A program made the translations under genes and the position numbers. The notes beneath the pieces are model-generated. The model was not told where the DNA came from. It worked only from the letters and a program-made list of their open reading frames with translations, and made no database searches. A stretch of 64,000 nt of DNA. Origin: Apibacter adventoris (GTDB lineage: Bacteria > Bacteroidota > Bacteroidia > Flavobacteriales > Weeksellaceae). Below, in pieces: positions 1 through 55,451 of the stretch (position 1 is the stretch's first letter; each line of letters starts with the position of its first letter). The stretch is taken from the NCBI RefSeq assembly GCF_002964975.1, contig NZ_PSZM01000046.1, forward strand, positions 310,001-374,000, in the 5' to 3' direction.

Positions 1-510
1 TCCACTTGAATTTTTCCAAATAAAAATATCTCCTTTCTGTGGTTTATAGGTTGTATTATCATGCTTTGTTAAATAGGTAGAGTGTTTTTCTCCAAAATCA
101 TGAAGTATTCTGGTATTTCCTCCCATTACTTTTTCACTCCATTCAATTTTATGTAAATAACGGCATACTAATTCTGAACAATCCATGGTATTTTCTCCTG
201 ATTCAGAGGTCCGATTTGAATCATTAGCATATTTCACTTTATAATTTTTGATTCTCACTTCTGACTGATCAATGCATTTAGTCAATAGCCAATCTATACC
301 TTGTTGTATTTTTAAATCAAAATTATTAAAATTTAGTTTTTCTTCAATATTTCCACATTTTTCTACCTTAAATTCAATTCTGCTTCCTGTTTTATATTCT
401 CCAGAATATGTTTTTTTACCATCTTTTGAACTATATATCCATTTTCCCCCTATATAAGATGCTTTTCTTTTAGGATAAGAAGTTGTATCAATAGTTATTA
501 AATAACTAAA
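1..510 (-). pseudogene. Start-less NlpC/P60-like module (orphan T6SS toxin tip?), partial at window edge
   Basis: Reading the minus strand from 510 down to 1 gives an uninterrupted frame of about 170 codons that runs off the window. It begins directly after the tandem TAA TAA that ends the upstream lipoprotein gene and is in the same frame. There is no ATG, GTG or TTG in roughly the first 70 codons. Near its C-terminal part it reads TMDCSELVCRYL and then YKPQKGDIFIWKN. This is the Cys-nucleophile block and the following PxxGDI block of NlpC/P60-type peptidoglycan hydrolases; the His block would lie outside the window. The position after an effector gene and its immunity-like genes, without a start codon or delivery domain, is the layout of displaced C-terminal toxin modules in polymorphic-toxin loci. 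It could instead be the remains of a decayed effector. The reading frame is certain; the role is inferred. Confidence 0.6.
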
Positions 511-43730: not shown

Positions 43731-45764
43731 ATGAATAGTTTATTGAAAAAAATTGAGACGCCTTTTGATAGTATACCGTTTGAAAATATAAACCAAGAAG
43801 ACTTTAAATCTGCAATAGAATGGGCAATCAAAGAATCAAAAGAAGAAATACAAAAAATAATTGAAAACACAGAACCACCTGGTTTTATCAATACTATAGT
43901 TGCCTTAGAAAATAGCGGTAAAAAGCTTAATATCATTTCAGCTGTTTTTTTTAATCTAAATTCAGCTGAAACCAATGATTATCTACAGAATTTAGCTCAG
44001 GAAATATCTCCTATGCTTGCAGAATATAGCAATGATATTATTTTAAATGAAAAACTGTTTGAAAAAATAAAAATAGTTTATGATACAACACTTAAATCTA
44101 AGCTAACTCAAGAAGAATATAGATTACTAGATAAAACATATAAAGATTTTTATAAAAATGGGGCGCTACTATCAGAAGAAGATAAGCAGAAATTAAGGGA
44201 AATTTCTAACGAATTAGCGACTCTTACCGTAAAATTTGGTCAAAATGTATTGAGAGATACAAATGATTATATTTTACATCTTAAAAATGAAAAGGACTTA
44301 GAGGGTCTACCCGATTTAATTATTAGCATGGCTCGGGAGGAAGCAAAAAAAAGGAAACTAGACGGATGGGTTTTTACTTTACATTTTCCTAGTTATGTTC
44401 CATTTTTAAAATATTCTAAACATAGAGAGTTACGTGAAGAAATTTACATAGCATCTATGCAAAAAGGATTCAAAGATAATGAAAATAATAATGAAAAAAT
44501 TATTCACCAGATTGTAGAGTTAAGACAGCAAAAAGCAGAGTTATTAGGATACAGCACTTATGCAGATTTAATTTTACAAGAAAGAATGGCTTCTAGTCCT
44601 AAGATTGTTTTAGATTTTCTTTTAGATCTTTTGAATAAAGCAAAGCCTTTTGCTGAAAAAGAGGTAAGTGAATTGAAAGAATTGGCAGTGCAAGATGGAA
44701 TAAATGAAATAATGGCTTATGATCATGCATATTATGCAGAAGTTTTACGAAAAAATAAATATGATTTATCAGAGGAAGAATTAAAACCTTACTTTCCCCT
44801 GAAACAGGTATTAAAAGCAGCCTTTGATGCGGCTAATAAATTATATGGATTATCTTTTAAAAAAAGGAATGATATCCAAAAATACCACCCCGAAGTAGAC
44901 GTTTATGAAGTTTTAAATGAAGAGAAAAAAACATATGCGCTATTATATACAGATTTTTTTCCTCGTGAAGGGAAACGGGCTGGTGCATGGATGACTCAAT
45001 ATAAAGGACAATACAAAACTTTACAAGAGAATATAAGACCACATATCTCTATAGTTTGTAATTTTTCTCGGCCTAATGGAGATATTCCATCCTTACTTAC
45101 TTTTTCAGAAGTAACTACATTATTTCATGAATTTGGTCATGCACTTCATGGTATTTTAGCAAACACAACATTTGAGTCTTTATCAGGTACTAATGTATAT
45201 TGGGATTTTGTGGAATTACCATCTCAATTTATGGAGAATTTCTGCTATGAAAAGGAATTTCTAGTTACTTTTGCTAAACATTTCCAAACCGGAGAGGTAT
45301 TAGAAGAAGATAAAATAGATAAAATAGTAGCTTCAGCAAATTTTTTACAAGGTTATCAAACCTTAAGGCAAATAGGTTTCGGTTTATTGGATATGGCATA
45401 TCATACAAATCAATTAAAACCTTCCGATTCTATTGAAGATTTTGAAGAAAAACACATAAAAAAAACTCAGTTATATCCTCATATTAAAAAAACTGCTATA
45501 AGTCCATCTTTTTCTCATATTTTTCAAGGCGGATATGCTGCAGGATATTATTCTTATAAATGGGCAGAAGTTTTAGATGCTGATGCATTTAGTTTTTTTA
45601 AAGAAAATGGAATTTTTGACCCTGAAACTGCAGATAAATTTAAAACTTTATTAAGTAAAGGAGGTACTGATGATCCTATGGAGCTGTATATTGCATTTAG
45701 AGGACGAAGGCCTCAGCCGGAAGCATTGCTTAAAAGAGCGGGATTAATTACCCAAGATGTTTAA
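43731..45764 (+). CDS. M3 family zinc peptidase (oligopeptidase A / dipeptidyl carboxypeptidase type)
   Basis: A 677-aa protein without signal peptide. The catalytic HEFGH is at residues 466-470 in TLFHEFGHALHGI, and the third ligand lies in WDFVELPSQFMENFCYE. The substrate-binding SHIFQGGYAAGYYSYKWAEVLDADAF block is at the C-terminus. It degrades short peptides in the cytoplasm. It is five bases from the stop of the convergent radC. Confidence 0.94.
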   Translation: MNSLLKKIETPFDSIPFENINQEDFKSAIEWAIKESKEEIQKIIENTEPPGFINTIVALENSGKKLNIISAVFFNLNSAETNDYLQNLAQEISPMLAEYSNDIILNEKLFEKIKIVYDTTLKSKLTQEEYRLLDKTYKDFYKNGALLSEEDKQKLREISNELATLTVKFGQNVLRDTNDYILHLKNEKDLEGLPDLIISMAREEAKKRKLDGWVFTLHFPSYVPFLKYSKHRELREEIYIASMQKGFKDNENNNEKIIHQIVELRQQKAELLGYSTYADLILQERMASSPKIVLDFLLDLLNKAKPFAEKEVSELKELAVQDGINEIMAYDHAYYAEVLRKNKYDLSEEELKPYFPLKQVLKAAFDAANKLYGLSFKKRNDIQKYHPEVDVYEVLNEEKKTYALLYTDFFPREGKRAGAWMTQYKGQYKTLQENIRPHISIVCNFSRPNGDIPSLLTFSEVTTLFHEFGHALHGILANTTFESLSGTNVYWDFVELPSQFMENFCYEKEFLVTFAKHFQTGEVLEEDKIDKIVASANFLQGYQTLRQIGFGLLDMAYHTNQLKPSDSIEDFEEKHIKKTQLYPHIKKTAISPSFSHIFQGGYAAGYYSYKWAEVLDADAFSFFKENGIFDPETADKFKTLLSKGGTDDPMELYIAFRGRRPQPEALLKRAGLITQDV

Positions 45765-47244: not shown

Positions 47245-47318
47245 TCCTCCTTAGCTCAGTTGGTTAGAGCATCTGACTGTTAATCAGAGGGTCGCTGGTT
47301 CGAGCCCAGCAGGAGGAG
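47245..47318 (+). tRNA. tRNA-Asn (anticodon GTT)
   Basis: A 74-nt cloverleaf. The acceptor TCCTCCT pairs with AGGAGGA, the D arm is GCTC/GAGC, the anticodon arm TCTGA/TCAGA has loop CTGTTAA (anticodon GTT), the variable loop has 5 nt, and the T arm GCTGG/CCAGC has loop TTCGAGC. Discriminator G; only CC of the CCA end is encoded. Confidence 0.97.
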
Positions 47319-47327
47319 CCTTGTTTT

Positions 47328-47356
47328 AAAGGGTTGTAGTTTACTACAACCCTTTT
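47328..47356 (+). terminator. Terminator of tRNA-Asn
   Basis: The stem AAAGGGTTGTAG/CTACAACCCTTT with a short loop is followed by a T-run, 9 bp after the tRNA. Confidence 0.85.
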
Positions 47357-47944: not shown

Positions 47945-48610
47945 TTATATAAATCCTAATTCAATAACAATGCCTAAAAGTTGTTTAGTGTCTTTAGCAT
48001 CAAAAGATTCTCGTAAAAATGCCAACCTTTTTTCAATAGAACTCTCACTATTAGGACTTATATGTTTTTCCTTTAAATATAATTCTACTTGTTTTTGGGT
48101 AAATCCCTGAGATAATAATTTAAGTAGATTTATATCATATTCACTAAACTCATAAACATGACTTTGTTTAGATTCTTTGTTGTCATGAGAAATATATGTT
48201 TGGTTATTGTTAATTGCAATGATAGCTTTTTTTAGTTCTTTAGAATCGTCTCTCCCTTTAGTTACAAATCCGTTAATTTGATAATCATCAAACATTGATT
48301 TGATTTTGTAAAATCTATTTTCGATCGAAAAGACTATAATTTTAAGATAAGGTTGTTCTTTTTTTGCTTCTTTTATTAATTCTTCTCCTCCAGATATTCT
48401 TTGTTCTCTGTAATCAGAAGCGAAAGATAAATCAGTAATTAATAAATCATAAGGATCCTGATCCAATAGAGCCCTTTGTATTTTTAATAGAGCGTCGTCG
48501 CAATAAAACACCTGATCAATTATAGGTATTATATTTAACTCTTCTATGGTTCTTTTTACTCCAAGGCTATAGCTATCAAAATCTTCTGCAATGAGTATCT
48601 TTCTGAACAT
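47945..48610 (-). CDS. Response regulator (DUF5932-type, LuxR-like DNA-binding end)
   Basis: A 221-aa protein. The receiver domain has acidic pocket residues Glu9/Asp10 (ILIAEDFDSYSLGVKR), phospho-acceptor Asp60 in YDLLITDLSFASDY, a switch Ser (IVFSIE) and Lys in GFVTKGRD. The output domain from about residue 150 is a LuxR-like helix-turn-helix (YDINLLKLLSQGFTQKQVELYLKE...SSIEKRLAFLRESF). The layout fits a flavobacterial group often labelled DUF5932 (from memory). It starts eight bases after the histidine kinase stop and is surely its partner. Targets are unknown; the inverted repeat upstream of the repeat lipoprotein gene is a candidate site. Confidence 0.88.
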   Translation of the reverse strand: MFRKILIAEDFDSYSLGVKRTIEELNIIPIIDQVFYCDDALLKIQRALLDQDPYDLLITDLSFASDYREQRISGGEELIKEAKKEQPYLKIIVFSIENRFYKIKSMFDDYQINGFVTKGRDDSKELKKAIIAINNNQTYISHDNKESKQSHVYEFSEYDINLLKLLSQGFTQKQVELYLKEKHISPNSESSIEKRLAFLRESFDAKDTKQLLGIVIELGFI

Positions 48611-48618
48611 ATTATTAT

Positions 48619-50463
48619 CTATTTTTGTAAATTTATGATAATTTTTACAGAAAATCCCTTTTTATATTCAATATTATATAAAATTTTTCCATTGATTGTG
48701 TTTATGCGATTTTCTATGTTTTTTAATCCTTTACCTGGTTTCCAGTTCTTGGAAGATGATATACCCACACCATTATCAAAATAATCAATTATCAAAACTT
48801 TATTTTTTTCTTTAAATTTTAAAGTAACTAAACTCGACCAGCTATGTTTTTTCATATTAGTCATAAGTTCTATTATAACGTAATATAATTCCTCCTTTAT
48901 TTTAATTGAAATATCTTCCCATATCAATTTATTATTTCCTAAAAGTATAATTTTCGTGTCCTTTTTTCCATAAGGTTGAAGCATGTCTTTCAAGAGATTT
49001 GCAAAATCATTTTTCAAGTCTGTCTTAAACTCTGATTCATGAGATATATTTCTAGATCTGTTATAAAGTTCTTCTAAATTATTTATGATTTTTGATGAAT
49101 TAAGGTCAGAATTATTTTCCAGTTGAATCATTAAATAATAAATTCCGTTGGCTACTTCATCATGGACTTTTTTGGAATATTTAATTTCAGTTTTATGTAC
49201 TTCCTCCAATTTTTCCTGTTTAAACTTTTCCTTTCTCCTTTTGTACCATGTAATTAATATAATTAAAATTATAATTGTAACTCCCGTTATTGAAAATACT
49301 AATACTCGTTGTTTAAGAATTTGATAATTTTTTTGGGCATTTAACGCTTTAAGTTGTAAATTTTCTTCTTTATTTTTTTCAACTTCATAACGTATTAAAG
49401 CAAATTGATTTTTTGCCTTACTTCTTTTAGTTTGTATACTATCATTAAGATGAAAATAGGAAACAAAGTGTTTTTTTGCTTCTGAAGGGTTTTCCAATAA
49501 TGTTAGCTTTTGTAATGCTTCTAATTGATCATCTGGAGTACCCACTTTTTTTGCTATTTTATACATAAGTTTAGCATGATAAACAGCTTTTAAAGGATTT
49601 GTTTTAGCGAAGTATCTTGAAAGATGTGAGTGGTTGGCTATTTGTCCTTGTAAATCATTTTCTTTTTCCCGTATTTTTAAAGTTTTAATAAGCTCGGGCT
49701 CTGCATTGTATTTAGGGGTGTTCAGCCATTTTGCATAAGCAAGATTATCTTCAATTTTAGCTAGAATAATTGGATGATTGTATAATTCAGGTTCTGTTTC
49801 AAGTAATTTTGTTAATTGCTTAATAGCACTATTATATTCTTTATTCTTTAAATATATGACAGCTTGATTGTTTTTGATGGATAGTATGTCAAGTTTGTTT
49901 ACTGTATAATTTAAAGATTTTGTATAGTAATCAATTGCCTGAGCATAATCTTTTTGTTCTGTTTTAGAAATAGCTAAGCAATTGTAAACAGAAGAAATAA
50001 AAGAATTATATTCCGGGGATTTCAAATATTTTAACGCTTCTACTGCCGTCTCTTCACTTCCAAAGTAGTCTCCTTCATTGGCTTGTAGAATAGCCATATT
50101 GATTAAATTAACCCCGATATGGGAAGAATCTTTCTGAATCAGAAATTCTTCTTTTGAATGATTAAAATAATAAAATGCACTATCACTGATATTTTTGTTA
50201 AGATAATAATACCCAACTTCAAAATATATTTTTCCTAATAATAAAGAGTTTTTTTCTGATCGGGCATTTTTGATATCATTAAAAACTTCTTTAAAATTAT
50301 TATCATTATATTGATGTATCTTTAAATTGTTGGAGTTTTCGGAAGGGTTTAAAATAGAGACAGGTGAATCACAAGAATATATAATGAAAAATATATAACA
50401 AAATAAATTTATTTTTTTAAAGATGGAAAGTAAAGAAAAATTATTTTTATTTAAACCAAACAT
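48619..50463 (-). CDS. TPR-containing sensor histidine kinase
   Basis: A 614-aa protein. N-terminal hydrophobic segment ending in IIYSC (Cys30), so the sensor part is exported and may even be lipid-anchored. Residues of about 55-345 hold several TPR units (for example ISDSAFYYFNHSKEEF and YAQAIDYYTKSLNYT). A membrane span lies near 375-400. The kinase part has phospho-His near 432 in KYSKKVHDEVANGIYYLMI (HisKA_3 type), N-box ELYYVIIELMTNMKKHSW, and DYFDNGVGI with GKGLKNIENRI as ATP lid. TPR sensors bind peptides or proteins, so a peptide or surface ligand is likely. It has its own promoter just after the terminator of the repeat lipoprotein gene. Confidence 0.9.
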   Translation of the reverse strand: MFGLNKNNFSLLSIFKKINLFCYIFFIIYSCDSPVSILNPSENSNNLKIHQYNDNNFKEVFNDIKNARSEKNSLLLGKIYFEVGYYYLNKNISDSAFYYFNHSKEEFLIQKDSSHIGVNLINMAILQANEGDYFGSEETAVEALKYLKSPEYNSFISSVYNCLAISKTEQKDYAQAIDYYTKSLNYTVNKLDILSIKNNQAVIYLKNKEYNSAIKQLTKLLETEPELYNHPIILAKIEDNLAYAKWLNTPKYNAEPELIKTLKIREKENDLQGQIANHSHLSRYFAKTNPLKAVYHAKLMYKIAKKVGTPDDQLEALQKLTLLENPSEAKKHFVSYFHLNDSIQTKRSKAKNQFALIRYEVEKNKEENLQLKALNAQKNYQILKQRVLVFSITGVTIIILIILITWYKRRKEKFKQEKLEEVHKTEIKYSKKVHDEVANGIYYLMIQLENNSDLNSSKIINNLEELYNRSRNISHESEFKTDLKNDFANLLKDMLQPYGKKDTKIILLGNNKLIWEDISIKIKEELYYVIIELMTNMKKHSWSSLVTLKFKEKNKVLIIDYFDNGVGISSSKNWKPGKGLKNIENRINTINGKILYNIEYKKGFSVKIIINLQK

Positions 50464-50470
50464 AATTAAA

Positions 50471-50478
50471 CAAAGATA
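50471..50478 (-). promoter_or_regulatory. -7 promoter box of the histidine kinase gene
   Basis: On the minus strand TATCTTTG, a full match to TAnnTTTG, ends seven bases before the kinase ATG. It lies just downstream of a strong terminator, so the kinase/regulator pair is a separate transcription unit from the repeat lipoprotein. Confidence 0.55.
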
Positions 50479-50516
50479 AAGAATTTGATTTTATTAAAAA
50501 AGAATAGTATAAAGAT

Positions 50517-50556
50517 AAAAAAATAGATACTAACTCTTATTAGTATCTATTTTTTT
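50517..50556. terminator. Strong bidirectional terminator after the repeat lipoprotein gene
   Basis: Perfect 17-base arms (50517-50533 and 50540-50556; core ATAGATACTAA/TTAGTATCTAT) with a six-base loop and A/T runs on both sides. It ends the minus-strand repeat lipoprotein transcript. Confidence 0.85.
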
Positions 50557-50653
50557 AGGTTTTTTTAAGATCTTACAAAATATATTTTAAGGCTGTTGAA
50601 TTATAAGATCATTATAAGCATAATAGTATAATTTTCTTTTAAAAGAAATTTTT

Positions 50654-51148
50654 CTACCAATTAGGTCTCCTAGGTAATTGTATAAGTTCCCCGGTAGTAC
50701 TAACCTTTTTGTTATCAAGTTTGTTATCAAGTCTTCTAGGTAATTGAATAAGTTCACCACTTGTATTAACCTCTTTATTATCAAGTTTGTTATCAAGTCT
50801 TCTAGGCAATTGAATAAGTTCACCACTTGTATTAACCTCTTTATTATCAAGTTTGTTATCAAGTCTTCTAGGCAACTGAATAAGTTCACCACTTGTATTA
50901 ACCTCTTTATTATCAAGTTTGTTATCAAGTCTTCTAGGTAACTGAATAAGTTCACCACTGGTGTTAACCTTTTTGTTATCAAGTCTTCTAGGCAACTGAA
51001 TAAGTTCACCACTGGTTTCAGCGGCTTGAATTTTTTGTTGGGATCCTTTTGATATTTCTCCATCAGTAAGATCGTTATAATCCTCTCCAACACAGGATAT
51101 TACTCCTAAACTGGAAATGAGAATACCGATAAGTAAAATTTTTTTCAT
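50654..51148 (-). CDS. Lipoprotein with six tandem GELIQLPRR repeats
   Basis: A 164-aa protein with a signal peptide and lipobox VISC (Cys19), followed by VGEDYND, acidic as in surface-export signals. After a linker (DLTDGEISKGSQQKIQAAE) come six copies of a unit with core SGELIQLPRRLDNK. Four of them carry LDNKLDNK and the spacer (E/K)VNT, giving a 22-residue period. Copy 1 is shorter, and copy 6 ends in TGELIQLPRRPNW at the C-terminus. I do not recognise the family. Each unit holds a dibasic RR that could be a processing site, so it may be a multi-copy peptide precursor, a surface adhesin or a stalk. The gene sits directly upstream of a TPR sensor kinase. Alternative frames open across the repeats are by-products of the 66-bp period. 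Confidence 0.75.
   Translation of the reverse strand: MKKILLIGILISSLGVISCVGEDYNDLTDGEISKGSQQKIQAAETSGELIQLPRRLDNKKVNTSGELIQLPRRLDNKLDNKEVNTSGELIQLPRRLDNKLDNKEVNTSGELIQLPRRLDNKLDNKEVNTSGELIQLPRRLDNKLDNKKVSTTGELIQLPRRPNW
50657..51016. repeat. Tandem 66-bp repeat array (six units)
   Basis: Near-identical 66-bp units encode the 22-residue repeats. Units 2-4 differ by only a few bases, so the array expanded recently. Inside each there is a smaller 12-bp duplication coding LDNK twice, absent from the first unit. The period is a multiple of three, so copy number can change without breaking the frame. Confidence 0.9.
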
Positions 51149-51508
51149 TTTTATTCAACTTTAAATTTTAACATTAGCGTGCTTACTTTAATGGTTATAA
51201 AGTAAGATCACACCCAATTTTCGGGATAATTAAGGAATTAGTATAATAGCAGACATAATAAATATCCCGATATAATTAATATTAGCTACTTTTTATTCCT
51301 TTATTTAATTCATTTTGTACATTTGCTACATAGCATTCAATTGAATTATTTGCAAAGTAAAAGAGTTAAGTCCAAAAAATATGGACAATGTAAAGACTTT
51401 TGAGGGACAAATTAATATTATGTTATATTGAGAATAAAAATCATTATTTTATGATATATTTATTGTTTAAAAAAAGATTTAGAGACAGAATTAAATCTGG
51501 TTTAATTT
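51149..51508. other. Regulatory gap between repeat lipoprotein and the 101-aa gene
   Basis: A 360-bp divergent intergenic region. It holds an inverted repeat at 51182-51206 (described separately), a second weaker pair TCGGGATA / TATCCCGA flanking about 51235-51285, and on the minus strand a TTACTTTGC promoter-like box near 51350. If the latter is used, the repeat gene has a leader of about 200 nt. Confidence 0.4.
51182..51206. promoter_or_regulatory. Inverted repeat upstream of the repeat lipoprotein gene
   Basis: CTTACTTTA and TAAAGTAAG form perfect nine-base arms with a seven-base loop, 34-58 nt upstream of the lipoprotein ATG. It could be a regulator site (for example for the nearby LuxR-like response regulator) or a hairpin in the mRNA leader. 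Confidence 0.45.
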
Positions 51509-51814
51509 ATGGAATATCAAGAGGTAATGAGACAGATTATTTTTTTAGCTTTTTCTAAAGCTGAAAAAGAAACTTTGCAAATATTAAAAACCCCACTTTC
51601 TAAACATATTTCACATGAAATTGAAATCCATTATAAAGTTTATATTAGTGAAAAAACATTTATAAGATATTACGATAAATTTATAAATGAAAAGGAAGGT
51701 TCAATAGCTAATCCAAATAGACGTATAATAGATTTTTTATGTAAATATATTGGATTTGAAAGTCTTATAGATTTTTATAATAAAGTTTATATAAACAAGG
51801 ATTCTTCTTTGTAA
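51509..51814 (+). CDS. Small conserved Bacteroidota protein, possible DNA-binding helper
   Basis: A 101-aa helical, cytoplasmic protein. The pattern HYKVYISEKTFIRYYDKFINEKEGSIANPNRRIIDFLCKYIGFESLIDFYNK resembles a small domain I have seen in Bacteroidota proteins (stress-type S..T..RYY.K, NP....ID.L..Y.GFES..DF), sometimes at the start of regulators. I cannot name it. It is divergent from the repeat lipoprotein and shares its intergenic region, so a regulatory link is possible. Confidence 0.55.
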   Translation: MEYQEVMRQIIFLAFSKAEKETLQILKTPLSKHISHEIEIHYKVYISEKTFIRYYDKFINEKEGSIANPNRRIIDFLCKYIGFESLIDFYNKVYINKDSSL

Positions 51815-53730: not shown

Positions 53731-53744
53731 TTAATTTTTTGCTA

Positions 53745-54524
53745 ATGAATAGAGTAATACCACCGGTAACTAAAAATTTATTAATATTAAATACTATTTT
53801 TTTCGCTGCGCGATATATATTGGGAATGAATGGCATAGATTTAGACGTAATTTTTGCATCTTTTTTTCCTTTTTCTCCAAATTTTCATTGGTATCAAACT
53901 ATTTCTCATATGTTTATGCATGGAGGATTAGCTCATTTTTTCTTTAATATGTTTTCTTTATGGATGTTTGGTTCTGCAGTTGAACAGGCATTAGGAACAA
54001 AAAAATACTTAATCTTATATTTTGTTTGTGGCCTAGGGGCATTTGCTCTGTTTAATCTAGTTAATTTTTTTGAATTTAAGCATTTATATGATTCTTTACT
54101 TGCTGAAAATATTCCTTTAAATGAAGTTGGGCAATATTCTAAATTAAGTATTTATAGCTCAGATAACGATATTATGAGAATGCGTTTTCAATGGTTATCT
54201 ACCTTACCTGAAAATACGAATTATAATGTAGCGAAAAGGTTTTATTTAGATTTAGTAACACCTTTGTTAGGGGCTAGTGGTGCTATTTATGGTGTTTTAG
54301 TGGCTTTTGGAGTTATGTTTCCCAATTCTGTTTTAATGTTGATATTTCCTCCTATTCCTATGAAAGCTAAATATTTTATACCTATAATGGTATTAATAGA
54401 ATTATTTCTGGGTGTAAAAGAAGTTCAGGGTGATAATGTAGCTCATTTTGCACATTTAGGTGGAGCAGTATTTGGTTTTTTCTTAACACGTTATTGGGTG
54501 AAAAATAGATATAGGTGGAATTAA
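53745..54524 (+). CDS. Rhomboid intramembrane serine protease
   Basis: A 259-aa protein from the ATG at 53745, with six or seven membrane spans. It has HMFMHGGLAHFFFNMFSLWMFG (the HxxxHxxxN part of the active centre), catalytic Ser178 in GASGAIYG, and catalytic His237 in AHFAHLGGAVFGF. It cleaves membrane proteins within their spans; the substrate is unknown. A longer start (TTG at 53739) would add two residues. It follows mutL by 14 bp, and the next gene is a degenerate paralog. Confidence 0.92.
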   Translation: MNRVIPPVTKNLLILNTIFFAARYILGMNGIDLDVIFASFFPFSPNFHWYQTISHMFMHGGLAHFFFNMFSLWMFGSAVEQALGTKKYLILYFVCGLGAFALFNLVNFFEFKHLYDSLLAENIPLNEVGQYSKLSIYSSDNDIMRMRFQWLSTLPENTNYNVAKRFYLDLVTPLLGASGAIYGVLVAFGVMFPNSVLMLIFPPIPMKAKYFIPIMVLIELFLGVKEVQGDNVAHFAHLGGAVFGFFLTRYWVKNRYRWN

Positions 54525-54539: not shown

Positions 54540-55451
54540 ATGTATAATGATTGGATAAATAAAATAAAATACTATTATAGAAGTGGTACAGAAGGAGTAA
54601 AAATAATCTACATATTTATAATTTCTTCTTTTGTTTACTGGATTTTCAATTTTATTTTGATGAATCTAACAGGTTTTTCATTAGAACCAGTAATTTTTTT
54701 GTCAGCAGATAAATTTATCCCTTATATTTGGACACTTTTTACTTTTCCTATAGTGCAAAAAAATCTTTGGGATTTATTTTTTGCCATGATAATGTTATAC
54801 TTTACAGAAAAGATTTTTAGAATTTATTTTAATGGAAATAGTTTTATTAAATTTTTTGTTTTAGGAAATATTTTCGGTGGAATAATTTTTTTATTATATA
54901 GTTTACTTACCGGATATACTTATATTTTTTTAAATGGTGCTATTGTTGGGATATATAGTGTACTATTTGCTGTTATATCTTATAATCCTAAAATGCCGGT
55001 TTCTTTATTTCCATTACCTGTTCAGTTTCCAATTTATGTATTAGGGATAATTTTTATAGTATTAGACGCTTTTTCAACTTTGAGTTCATCATCTCTTACA
55101 ATGAATGTATTTATAGCAAGAATAGCTGCAGCAGCTTTCGGTTTTTTTTACATGAAATCATTTCAGACAGGAAATGATTTTTTAGGAAAAATAGTTCCTA
55201 ATTTTAATACTTTCTACAAAATATTTTCGTTTATCAAAGTAAGGATTTTTTCTTCAAAAAACAGAAAAAAAGAAAAATTTCAATATCAATCAACCAAATC
55301 AGGTGTTCATACAAATAAAAATTTTAATGAAAATAAAATAGAAAATCAGAAAAAAATAGATGCTATCTTAGATAAGATATCTAAATATGGATATGAAAAC
55401 CTTACAAAAGAAGAAAAAGAATTTCTATTTAATTCTTCTAAAAAATTATGA
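54540..55451 (+). CDS. Rhomboid-like pseudoprotease with DUF6576-type tail
   Basis: A 303-aa protein with about six spans in rhomboid order. The Ser motif GASG is replaced by GAIVGIYSV, and the His block reads NVFIARIAAAAFGF with no His. It cannot act as a serine protease. The C-terminal tail (KKIDAILDKISKYGYENLTKEEKEFLF) fits the DUF6576 domain attached to many Bacteroidota rhomboids. It may bind or regulate substrates of the active rhomboid encoded 15 bp upstream, as iRhoms do in animals; this is inference. Confidence 0.85.
   Translation: MYNDWINKIKYYYRSGTEGVKIIYIFIISSFVYWIFNFILMNLTGFSLEPVIFLSADKFIPYIWTLFTFPIVQKNLWDLFFAMIMLYFTEKIFRIYFNGNSFIKFFVLGNIFGGIIFLLYSLLTGYTYIFLNGAIVGIYSVLFAVISYNPKMPVSLFPLPVQFPIYVLGIIFIVLDAFSTLSSSSLTMNVFIARIAAAAFGFFYMKSFQTGNDFLGKIVPNFNTFYKIFSFIKVRIFSSKNRKKEKFQYQSTKSGVHTNKNFNENKIENQKKIDAILDKISKYGYENLTKEEKEFLFNSSKKL

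Follow-up and report, generated by a model that had tools for sequence, protein, structure and literature searches.

Does a lipoprotein that carries tandem copies of a short motif, encoded directly before an exported tetratricopeptide repeat (TPR) sensor kinase, supply the signal that this kinase perceives? The question is raised by a locus of Apibacter adventoris lying in a stretch of 64,000 nucleotides of contig NZ_PSZM01000046.1 (positions 310,001 to 374,000, hereafter the window), where a repeat lipoprotein gene (50654-51148; 164 amino acids), a sensor kinase gene (48619-50463; 614 amino acids) and a response regulator gene (47945-48610; 221 amino acids) follow one another in the order of transcription on the minus strand, with a hairpin between the first two. 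An earlier note, made from the window alone, had proposed that lipoprotein and kinase form a signalling system, and comparison with related loci indicates that this idea holds in a more general form. The locus is best described as a four-part peptide-signalling unit, of which the window holds the Apibacter form with a multiplied motif, a reading to which we assign a probability of roughly 0.7. Absent from the earlier note were a divergent gene on the plus strand, here called DIV (51509-51814; 101 amino acids), and an operator-like array of GTC boxes (51384-51408).

A short exported peptide as the neighbour of the kinase

When the neighbours of homologous kinases were compared, as the earlier note had advised, 64 of 80 named loci proved to have, directly before the TPR kinase, a short exported peptide with an end of the form (S/G)G(E/D/N)xGQxPP…, against 1.6 expected. 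This outcome favours the earlier note, which had named the regular absence of such a neighbour from close homologues as a refutation. The count was made with a fixed pattern (a hydrophobic start plus the motif), and the expectation comes from the rest of the DNA in these loci, a background in which one real peptide and many DIV fragments are present. Since the named loci (given L numbers below, as genomes are given G numbers) are the best 80 of at least 563, they lean to near relatives. Outside Apibacter the peptide is mostly 45-83 amino acids long with one C-terminal motif, typical ends being DTSGETGQIPPPKK, GGENGQTPKK and GGNTGQLPPPFTNP; the first closes the peptide of Chryseobacterium soli (L095, …DTSGETGQIPPPKK), that of C. 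lathyri (L099) ends in …IGGNTGQLPPPPSNNP, and the pairs of these two environmental species are swapped. A lipobox was seen in 6 of the 67 pattern-called peptides of named loci, two of them from Apibacter, with none shown in the other 61. Among the 16 loci that the pattern missed, L148, L152 and L156 carry a peptide under a looser pattern and L145 a partly similar one by eye. In L102 and L118, two tandem peptide genes with differing ends precede the kinase.

To this set a draw spread evenly over the class was added, in which the response regulator was found at an E-value of 1e-25 in 18 of 395 genomes, at 24 places. Thirteen of these places were opened afresh, and both DIV and peptide were present in nine and neither in four; seven of the nine peptides were called by the pattern and two by reading the gaps. 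Locus L221, which has DIV and peptide, was taken from the set of relatives for its DIV and is excluded from this class-wide count. Over the 88 loci parsed in all, peptide and DIV occurred together in 70, neither in 12, DIV alone in 2 and peptide alone in 4, one of the last being false (L213, a pattern match in a permease-like open reading frame). The association of peptide and DIV is strong (Fisher p 7e-10) and persists in independent pairs on the tree (6 to 0, p 0.03). In this parse the kinase pattern missed L214 and L216-L219 (of L208-L221), and the peptides of L218 and L219 were read by hand.

The system as a whole is present in Chryseobacterium, Elizabethkingia, Empedobacter, Epilithonimonas, Pedobacter, Flavobacteriaceae and Apibacter, and the peptide-bearing groups comprise Weeksellaceae, Flavobacteriaceae (Lutibacter, Flavobacterium, Psychroserpens), Pedobacter, Sphingobacterium and a Chitinophagales bacterium. 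The arrangement found, a small exported precursor gene adjoining the kinase gene, is that of peptide-pheromone two-component systems.

Peptide end and TPR domain exchanged together

The decisive evidence for the signalling reading is the mosaic evolution of the locus. Peptide ends were labelled as basic (KK/RK) or P-type in 56 of 64 loci considered, the other eight lacking a label or DIV, and the number of label changes was counted on trees of each part. Only 3 changes were required on the tree of the TPR domain (49495-50289 in the window, amino acids 59-323 of the kinase), as against 15 on the tree of the kinase part, 14 on that of the response regulator and 16 on that of DIV, whereas labels shuffled on the TPR tree gave a mean of 18.4 changes and a minimum of 13 in 200 shuffles. 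A second label, the E/D/N position of the motif, behaved in the same way (10 changes for TPR versus 23 for kinase, 23 for regulator and 25 for DIV). Bootstraps in which 190 columns were resampled for each part (25 replicates) returned medians for the end label of 4 (2-5) for TPR, 16 for kinase, 13 for regulator and 15 for DIV. Furthermore, when windows of 60 amino acids were moved along the kinase, 3-5 changes were counted within residues 1-338 and 14-18 from window 309-368 on, so that the switch is sharp at the boundary between TPR domain and membrane segment.

The same was verified without labels. The last 22 residues of the peptide correlated with TPR identity at a rho of 0.48, a value reached in none of 500 permutations, and with kinase, regulator and DIV at 0.24-0.30; the first 18 residues correlated at 0.12 with TPR and at 0.40-0.43 with kinase, regulator and DIV. 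Within one and the same protein, identity of the TPR domain correlated with that of the kinase part at 0.11, as compared with 0.89 between kinase and regulator. Single pairs of loci illustrate both directions of exchange: L097 and L098 are 30% identical in TPR, 94% in kinase and 95% in regulator, and their peptides differ, whereas L095 and L117 are 88% identical in TPR, 63% in kinase and 45% in DIV, and the last 16 residues of their peptides are identical.

The exchanged unit thus seems to begin within the peptide gene, behind the part for the signal sequence, and to stop where the TPR domain ends, although its edge in the peptide gene is less sure because the signal part offers only 18 residues. 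Such edges would be expected of a peptide core that serves the TPR domain as ligand, and the co-exchange implies that core and receptor domain move as one cassette, which is the signature of pheromone 'pherotypes'. The putative signal and the sensor domain accordingly fall into co-varying specificity groups, as they do in pheromone systems, and the link that the earlier note had drawn between TPR domains and peptides gains comparative backing here.

DIV and the operator-like array

A second co-variation was detected upstream of the peptide gene. DIV starts mostly about 350-390 nucleotides before the peptide gene in the named loci. Upstream of the peptide stands an array of direct repeats with a period of 10-11 bp, of the GTC type in 34 of 66 regions (0.1 expected), and other loci have TTTCC or GGAAT units in this region. 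In the window, three GTC boxes with an 11-bp period lie at 51384-51408 on the minus strand, ahead of TTACTTTG (51353-51360, minus strand), a -7-like element that points towards the lipoprotein gene, the consensus of Bacteroidota being TAnnTTTG. Among 37 loci with both elements, the last GTC is separated from TTTG by 17, 27-28 or 39 bp, distances that amount to steps of one helical turn, and TTTG itself stands 208-268 nucleotides before the peptide start. The window array is the sole exact occurrence of GTCN8GTCN8GTC in the 2.75-Mb genome, where the reversed control pattern has five sites; this search for a wider regulon covered the exact pattern.

On trees of 63 labelled loci, six unlabelled ones being left out, the array type changed 4 times for the DIV N-domain and 11 times each for response regulator and kinase. 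The array therefore goes with DIV and not with the response regulator, which was rejected as its binder. Bootstrap medians for the array label (TPR 9, kinase 8, regulator 9, DIV 3, range 2-5) agree, and the end label follows TPR while the array label follows DIV, a double dissociation. An operator type that follows DIV is what a DNA-binding regulator would produce, and the operator is probably this array of 10-11-bp period upstream of the peptide promoter.

The earlier note had instead suggested that the regulator could act at an inverted repeat before the lipoprotein gene. The repeat does exist (CTTACTTTA-N7-TAAAGTAAG, 51182-51206), within the long 5' leader (51149-51352, minus strand), but the four other upstream regions of Apibacter that were aligned do not preserve its sequence, and it was rejected as an operator; action of the response regulator at this repeat is not supported, the conserved operator-like element being the array, whose type follows DIV. 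As for the leader RNA, only a weak consensus structure was obtained, with a covariation term of 0.

Of 79 genomes searched, 15 have DIV; 13 of these carry it on the contig of the response regulator, no more than a few kb away, and the other two are G001 and G003. Outside Apibacter the protein has about 235-416 amino acids, and a membrane helix connects its N-domain to a C-terminal domain that bears a CMYW-like motif; the Apibacter proteins (97-145 amino acids) are homologous to the N-domain only. This domain was modelled as five helices with predicted local distance difference test (pLDDT) values of 78-92 over the block, and had no match in PDB below an E-value of 1; nor did the four DIV proteins scanned match Pfam above cut-off. 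N-domains of the GGAAT type and those of the GTC/TTTCC types are joined to the same membrane helix and CMYW-like C-domain, which suggests domain exchange within DIV.

The repeat lipoprotein and the Apibacter forms

In the window lipoprotein, whose lipobox cysteine is Cys19 by eye, GELIQLPRR occurs in six exact copies (50666-51010, minus strand; amino acids 47-161) that start at residues 47, 65, 87, 109, 131 and 153, with a spacing of 66 nucleotides except for the 54 between the first two. Two alternative open reading frames across the array (50587-51093, minus strand; 50744-50941, plus strand) are most likely by-products of the 66-nucleotide repeat.

A search of its own genome with this protein returned only itself, and a search of 149 relatives gave a match at E-values up to 1 in 26, itself included. 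The best non-self match (8.3e-5, in G050, over residues 1-70) was discarded, being to an unrelated-looking lipoprotein of 170 amino acids with only the signal region in common. Even the Apibacter counterparts were missed or barely detected (G006 at 0.397), and no match was obtained in the GTDB contigs. For lack of any clear relative by sequence the protein seemed to be an orphan, a view that changed with the comparison of neighbouring genes by position. The lone match above a curated cut-off for any peptide or lipoprotein was that of RNA_pol_A_CTD to the window repeats (24.2 versus 23.8 bits); no single stretch passes, and the match was taken as repeat-driven chance.

The kinase/regulator pair is present in 7 of 9 Apibacter genomes, and a repeat lipoprotein stands directly before the kinase in five (G000, G002, G006, G007, G008). 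In each of the four other Apibacter loci with readable and linked upstream DNA (L053, L054, L055, L058), a lipoprotein with an MKK…SCx(D/E)DYxD-like start precedes the kinase and carries repeats of its own, among them MDISGETAQNPVR(R/K), TSGETGHVAAENANP and QVGGEQGHIP…. A contig of G003 begins inside such repeats, beside DIV, and in A. muscae (G002) the peptide is present with no DIV in the whole genome and no GTC array upstream. It is proposed that the version of this bee symbiont carries the signal motif in tandem repeats, the motif being multiplied in most Apibacter. In addition, the five linked Apibacter copies have an acidic stretch after the lipobox cysteine (CVGEDYND, CSDDYND and so on), which resembles the export signals to the cell surface described for lipoproteins of Bacteroidetes in the available part of PMC5080379, and display at the surface is possible by this analogy.

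A second response regulator of the family, with no matching kinase in the fetched locus, was seen in Apibacter at L051 (contig C45 of G000, ~50061-50711) and L084-L087, where it is followed by genes that look by eye like umuD and umuC. The kinase/regulator loci L053, L054, L056 and L058 adjoin a gene for a DinB-like polymerase, also by eye.

Kinase, response regulator and kinase expression

The earlier description of the kinase as an exported TPR protein was borne out. Its AlphaFold2 model (mean pLDDT 85.5) comprises an N-terminal signal, a TPR solenoid over amino acids 59-323, a long helix with a membrane segment and a kinase domain, and a TPR domain placed between N-terminal signal and membrane helix is expected to be periplasmic. 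The kinase part matches DesK structures (Foldseek 3.6e-7), and the best PDB matches of the whole protein were DesK-type kinases and the TPR domains of LGN/Pins, the latter in TPR-peptide complexes; the structure search pointed to nothing beyond a TPR domain plus a DesK kinase. Across 41 aligned kinases, the lipobox-like C31 is conserved in 95% and H434/D435 in 100%; the asparagine series N161, N198, N199 and N240 is kept in peptide-bearing and peptide-less kinases alike.

The regulator is LuxR-like, as had been stated, in that a receiver is joined to a degenerate LuxR/GerE-type tail. Its profile matched RcsB in PDB at 2.4e-11, and D60, invariant in 20 rows, aligns with the aspartate in the LITDLS of RcsB. 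A DesK-like kinase fold coupled to an RcsB-like receiver and tail places the two proteins as a DesK/RcsB-type pair. In L059 and L060 two response regulators of this family stand one after the other behind the kinase, and in L150, L161-L163 and L217 related kinases stand in tandem or after another kinase-like open reading frame, with no peptide or DIV found.

It had also been suggested that separate transcription units allow strong production of the peptide and low expression of the kinase. For the terminator on which this partly depends there is a good candidate: the AT-rich hairpin at 50511-50562 (minus strand) reaches -19.1 kcal/mol, beyond all of 30 shuffles made for the window (mean -7.4, minimum -12.1), and a hairpin of -12 to -19 kcal/mol occupies the same gap between peptide and kinase genes in the 31 named loci folded and in five Apibacter genomes. 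The 31, two of which are also among the five, are those of the first 40 out of 66 loci whose gaps measure 40-400 nucleotides. The other half of the suggestion, a separate kinase promoter, was not sustained. No excess of sigma-70 sites was detected between 46500 and 53000 (48 sites versus 45.1 in shuffles), the lone TAnnTTTG of the 190-nucleotide lipoprotein-kinase gap lies 15 nucleotides before the kinase ATG, and such a site is absent from 25 of the 31 gaps in named loci. A surplus of peptide over kinase by way of a terminator is plausible.

The proposed system and its alternatives

The recurrent gene order, the array, the hairpin and the co-exchange with its edges, all computed directly, can be assembled into the following mechanism. 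The small exported protein would carry the ligand, as one C-terminal motif in most genera and as tandem copies in most Apibacter, and the periplasmic TPR solenoid may physically bind this motif, upon which the kinase would signal to the RcsB-like response regulator and so presumably to output genes. From the array and its association we infer that DIV binds the DNA repeats and sets peptide production, in a direction that is likewise part of the proposal. The terminator after the peptide gene would keep kinase expression lower. Peptide core and TPR domain would be inherited and exchanged as a matched pair, giving species-specific 'pherotypes' through which cells may signal to one another. We also lean, with more reserve, towards the broader statement that several Bacteroidota groups (Weeksellaceae, Flavobacteriaceae, Pedobacter/Sphingobacterium and Chitinophagales) have an unrecognised peptide language in common, made of TPR-peptide pherotype cassettes and a second, independently swapped cassette of membrane-anchored DIV and array, with Apibacter using a tandem multi-copy lipoprotein and a DIV deprived of its membrane and C-terminal parts.

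Several observations weigh against this interpretation. Twelve of the 88 loci have a close kinase with neither peptide nor DIV (one of them, L109, cut by a contig end), in L128 no peptide could be recognised beside DIV, and for the peptides of L154 and L157 no DIV was found. In the Apibacter genome G001 peptide and kinase are unlinked, DIV, the array and a 76-residue lipoprotein with a single ISGEVKRLNLIP end sharing a contig separate from that of the kinase; the repeats of Apibacter have only a loose core in common with the motif of other genera, and the genus forms a separate clade on the TPR tree. The end label is slightly clustered on the kinase tree as well, where 6 of 200 shuffles were as low as observed, and a weak correlation of the peptide end with kinase, regulator and DIV (0.22-0.26) persists once TPR identity is accounted for. 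The KK/P labels, moreover, were picked after the sequences had been viewed; the label-free test guards against that bias, and the E/D/N label agrees as well. No further support comes from conservation within the TPR domain, for TPR columns of peptide-bearing kinases are not specially kept (the share retained in peptide-less kinases is 0.71 for TPR and 0.74 for the kinase part), and an arms race by faster TPR evolution was not seen (0.55 for TPR versus 0.56 for kinase between the window and A. mensalis). Finally, neither an exporter nor a peptide-modifying enzyme is apparent among the window neighbours.

The co-exchange data would also fit if the peptide were a matched regulatory subunit of its own cell's kinase, an inhibitor or co-sensor of, for example, lipoprotein export or envelope state that is co-inherited with it, and the expected periplasmic position of the TPR domain, the predicted lipid anchor of the Apibacter peptide and the few lipoboxes among pattern-called peptides speak for such a role. 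However, 61 of those 67 peptides are without a lipobox, and the pair diversifies and is exchanged among close species in the manner of signalling specificity groups, for which a private subunit would have less reason; this explanation is possible, though on balance unlikely. Considerably more doubtful is a role of the lipoprotein as a surface protein of structural or adhesive function, or as a precursor of an antimicrobial, simply regulated by the adjacent two-component system. Tandem repeats, a lipobox and the acidic stretch that resembles the signals in the available part of PMC5080379 are what such a protein might show, but the single-motif peptides of other genera are on the small side for a structural protein built of repeats, a credible family match was not obtained, and co-exchange with the TPR domain would be left unexplained. 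Least probable of all is hitchhiking, in which peptide end and TPR domain, whose coding segments adjoin on recombining DNA, co-vary as mere neighbours with no functional tie, given that the TPR/kinase edge is sharp and inside one gene, that the other edge appears (less surely, from 18 residues) to fall within the peptide gene, where the signal sequence gives way to the core, and that DIV, nearer to the peptide gene than the far end of the TPR segment, shows no such co-variation.

Neighbouring genes

By Pfam, the neighbours on both sides of the locus in the window are an M3 peptidase, RadC, DUF7935, DIV, MutL, two rhomboid-family genes and an Exo_endo_phos gene. The M3 peptidase (43731-45764) and the rhomboid-family genes (53739-54524 and 54540-55451) flank the locus within about 8 kb, and they are possible peptide processors or just conserved mutL neighbours, nothing tying them to the system. 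A tRNA-like sequence (Asn by eye) lies at 47246-47320, followed by a terminator-like hairpin at 47328-47355.

Comparison with known systems

Peptide quorum sensing is known chiefly from Firmicutes. No description of the present system was found in Pfam, NCBIfam or PHROGs, and no paper on such a pair of peptide and TPR kinase in Bacteroidota stood among the open-licence papers listed in the literature searches. The sequence comparisons point to an unrecognised peptide signalling system in this phylum. The RRNPP proteins (Rap, NprR, PlcR) are TPR peptide receptors, comparable in the use of a TPR solenoid as receptor of short peptides; they are cytoplasmic regulators of Firmicutes without a kinase domain, and none was among the best 50 PDB matches listed for the window kinase. 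To DesK/DesR and the RcsB class the likeness is confined to the kinase part and the regulator respectively, sensor domain and locus being unrelated.

Within Bacteroidota, the RiPP (ribosomally synthesized and post-translationally modified peptide) clusters of Bacteroidales, as far as the available part of PMC10352776 describes them, encode double-glycine precursors; two of the clusters contain TPR-like genes, and a further one contains a histidine kinase/response regulator pair. They resemble the present loci in combining small precursor peptides with such genes, but modifying enzymes and peptidase-containing transporters are described there and none was noticed here, and TPR and kinase are not described there as joined in one protein. 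Another counterpart of the receptor is FimS of the FimS/FimR pair of Porphyromonas gingivalis, a histidine kinase with a periplasmic TPR sensor for which, in the available part of PMC11053733, a polypeptide ligand is proposed and the signal is called unknown. The likeness rests on that description, in which, unlike here, no adjacent peptide gene or DIV is mentioned. As natural swaps of ligand and receptor are already mapped in the present system, the ligand of a periplasmic TPR kinase, a question called open for FimS in the same text, becomes directly testable, its relatives offering ready-made matched and mismatched pairs of peptide and receptor.

The overall organization can be compared with ComQXPA quorum sensing of Bacillus (peptide ComX, kinase ComP, LuxR-type regulator ComA). 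No homology of the peptide was detected, and no ComQ-like isoprenyl transferase was found among the window neighbours by Pfam, those of relatives having been read by eye only. The present receptor is a TPR solenoid instead of a polytopic membrane domain, DIV and its array are additional, and the host belongs to Bacteroidota. In both, however, a pre-peptide gene stands by genes for a histidine kinase and a LuxR/GerE-type regulator. According to the available parts of PMC4008528 and PMC4408185, the N-terminal part of the comQXPA receptor is variable and its cytoplasmic part conserved, and strains form pherotypes; a variable sensor part, a conserved cytoplasmic part and communication groups are likewise the features by which the two systems resemble each other.

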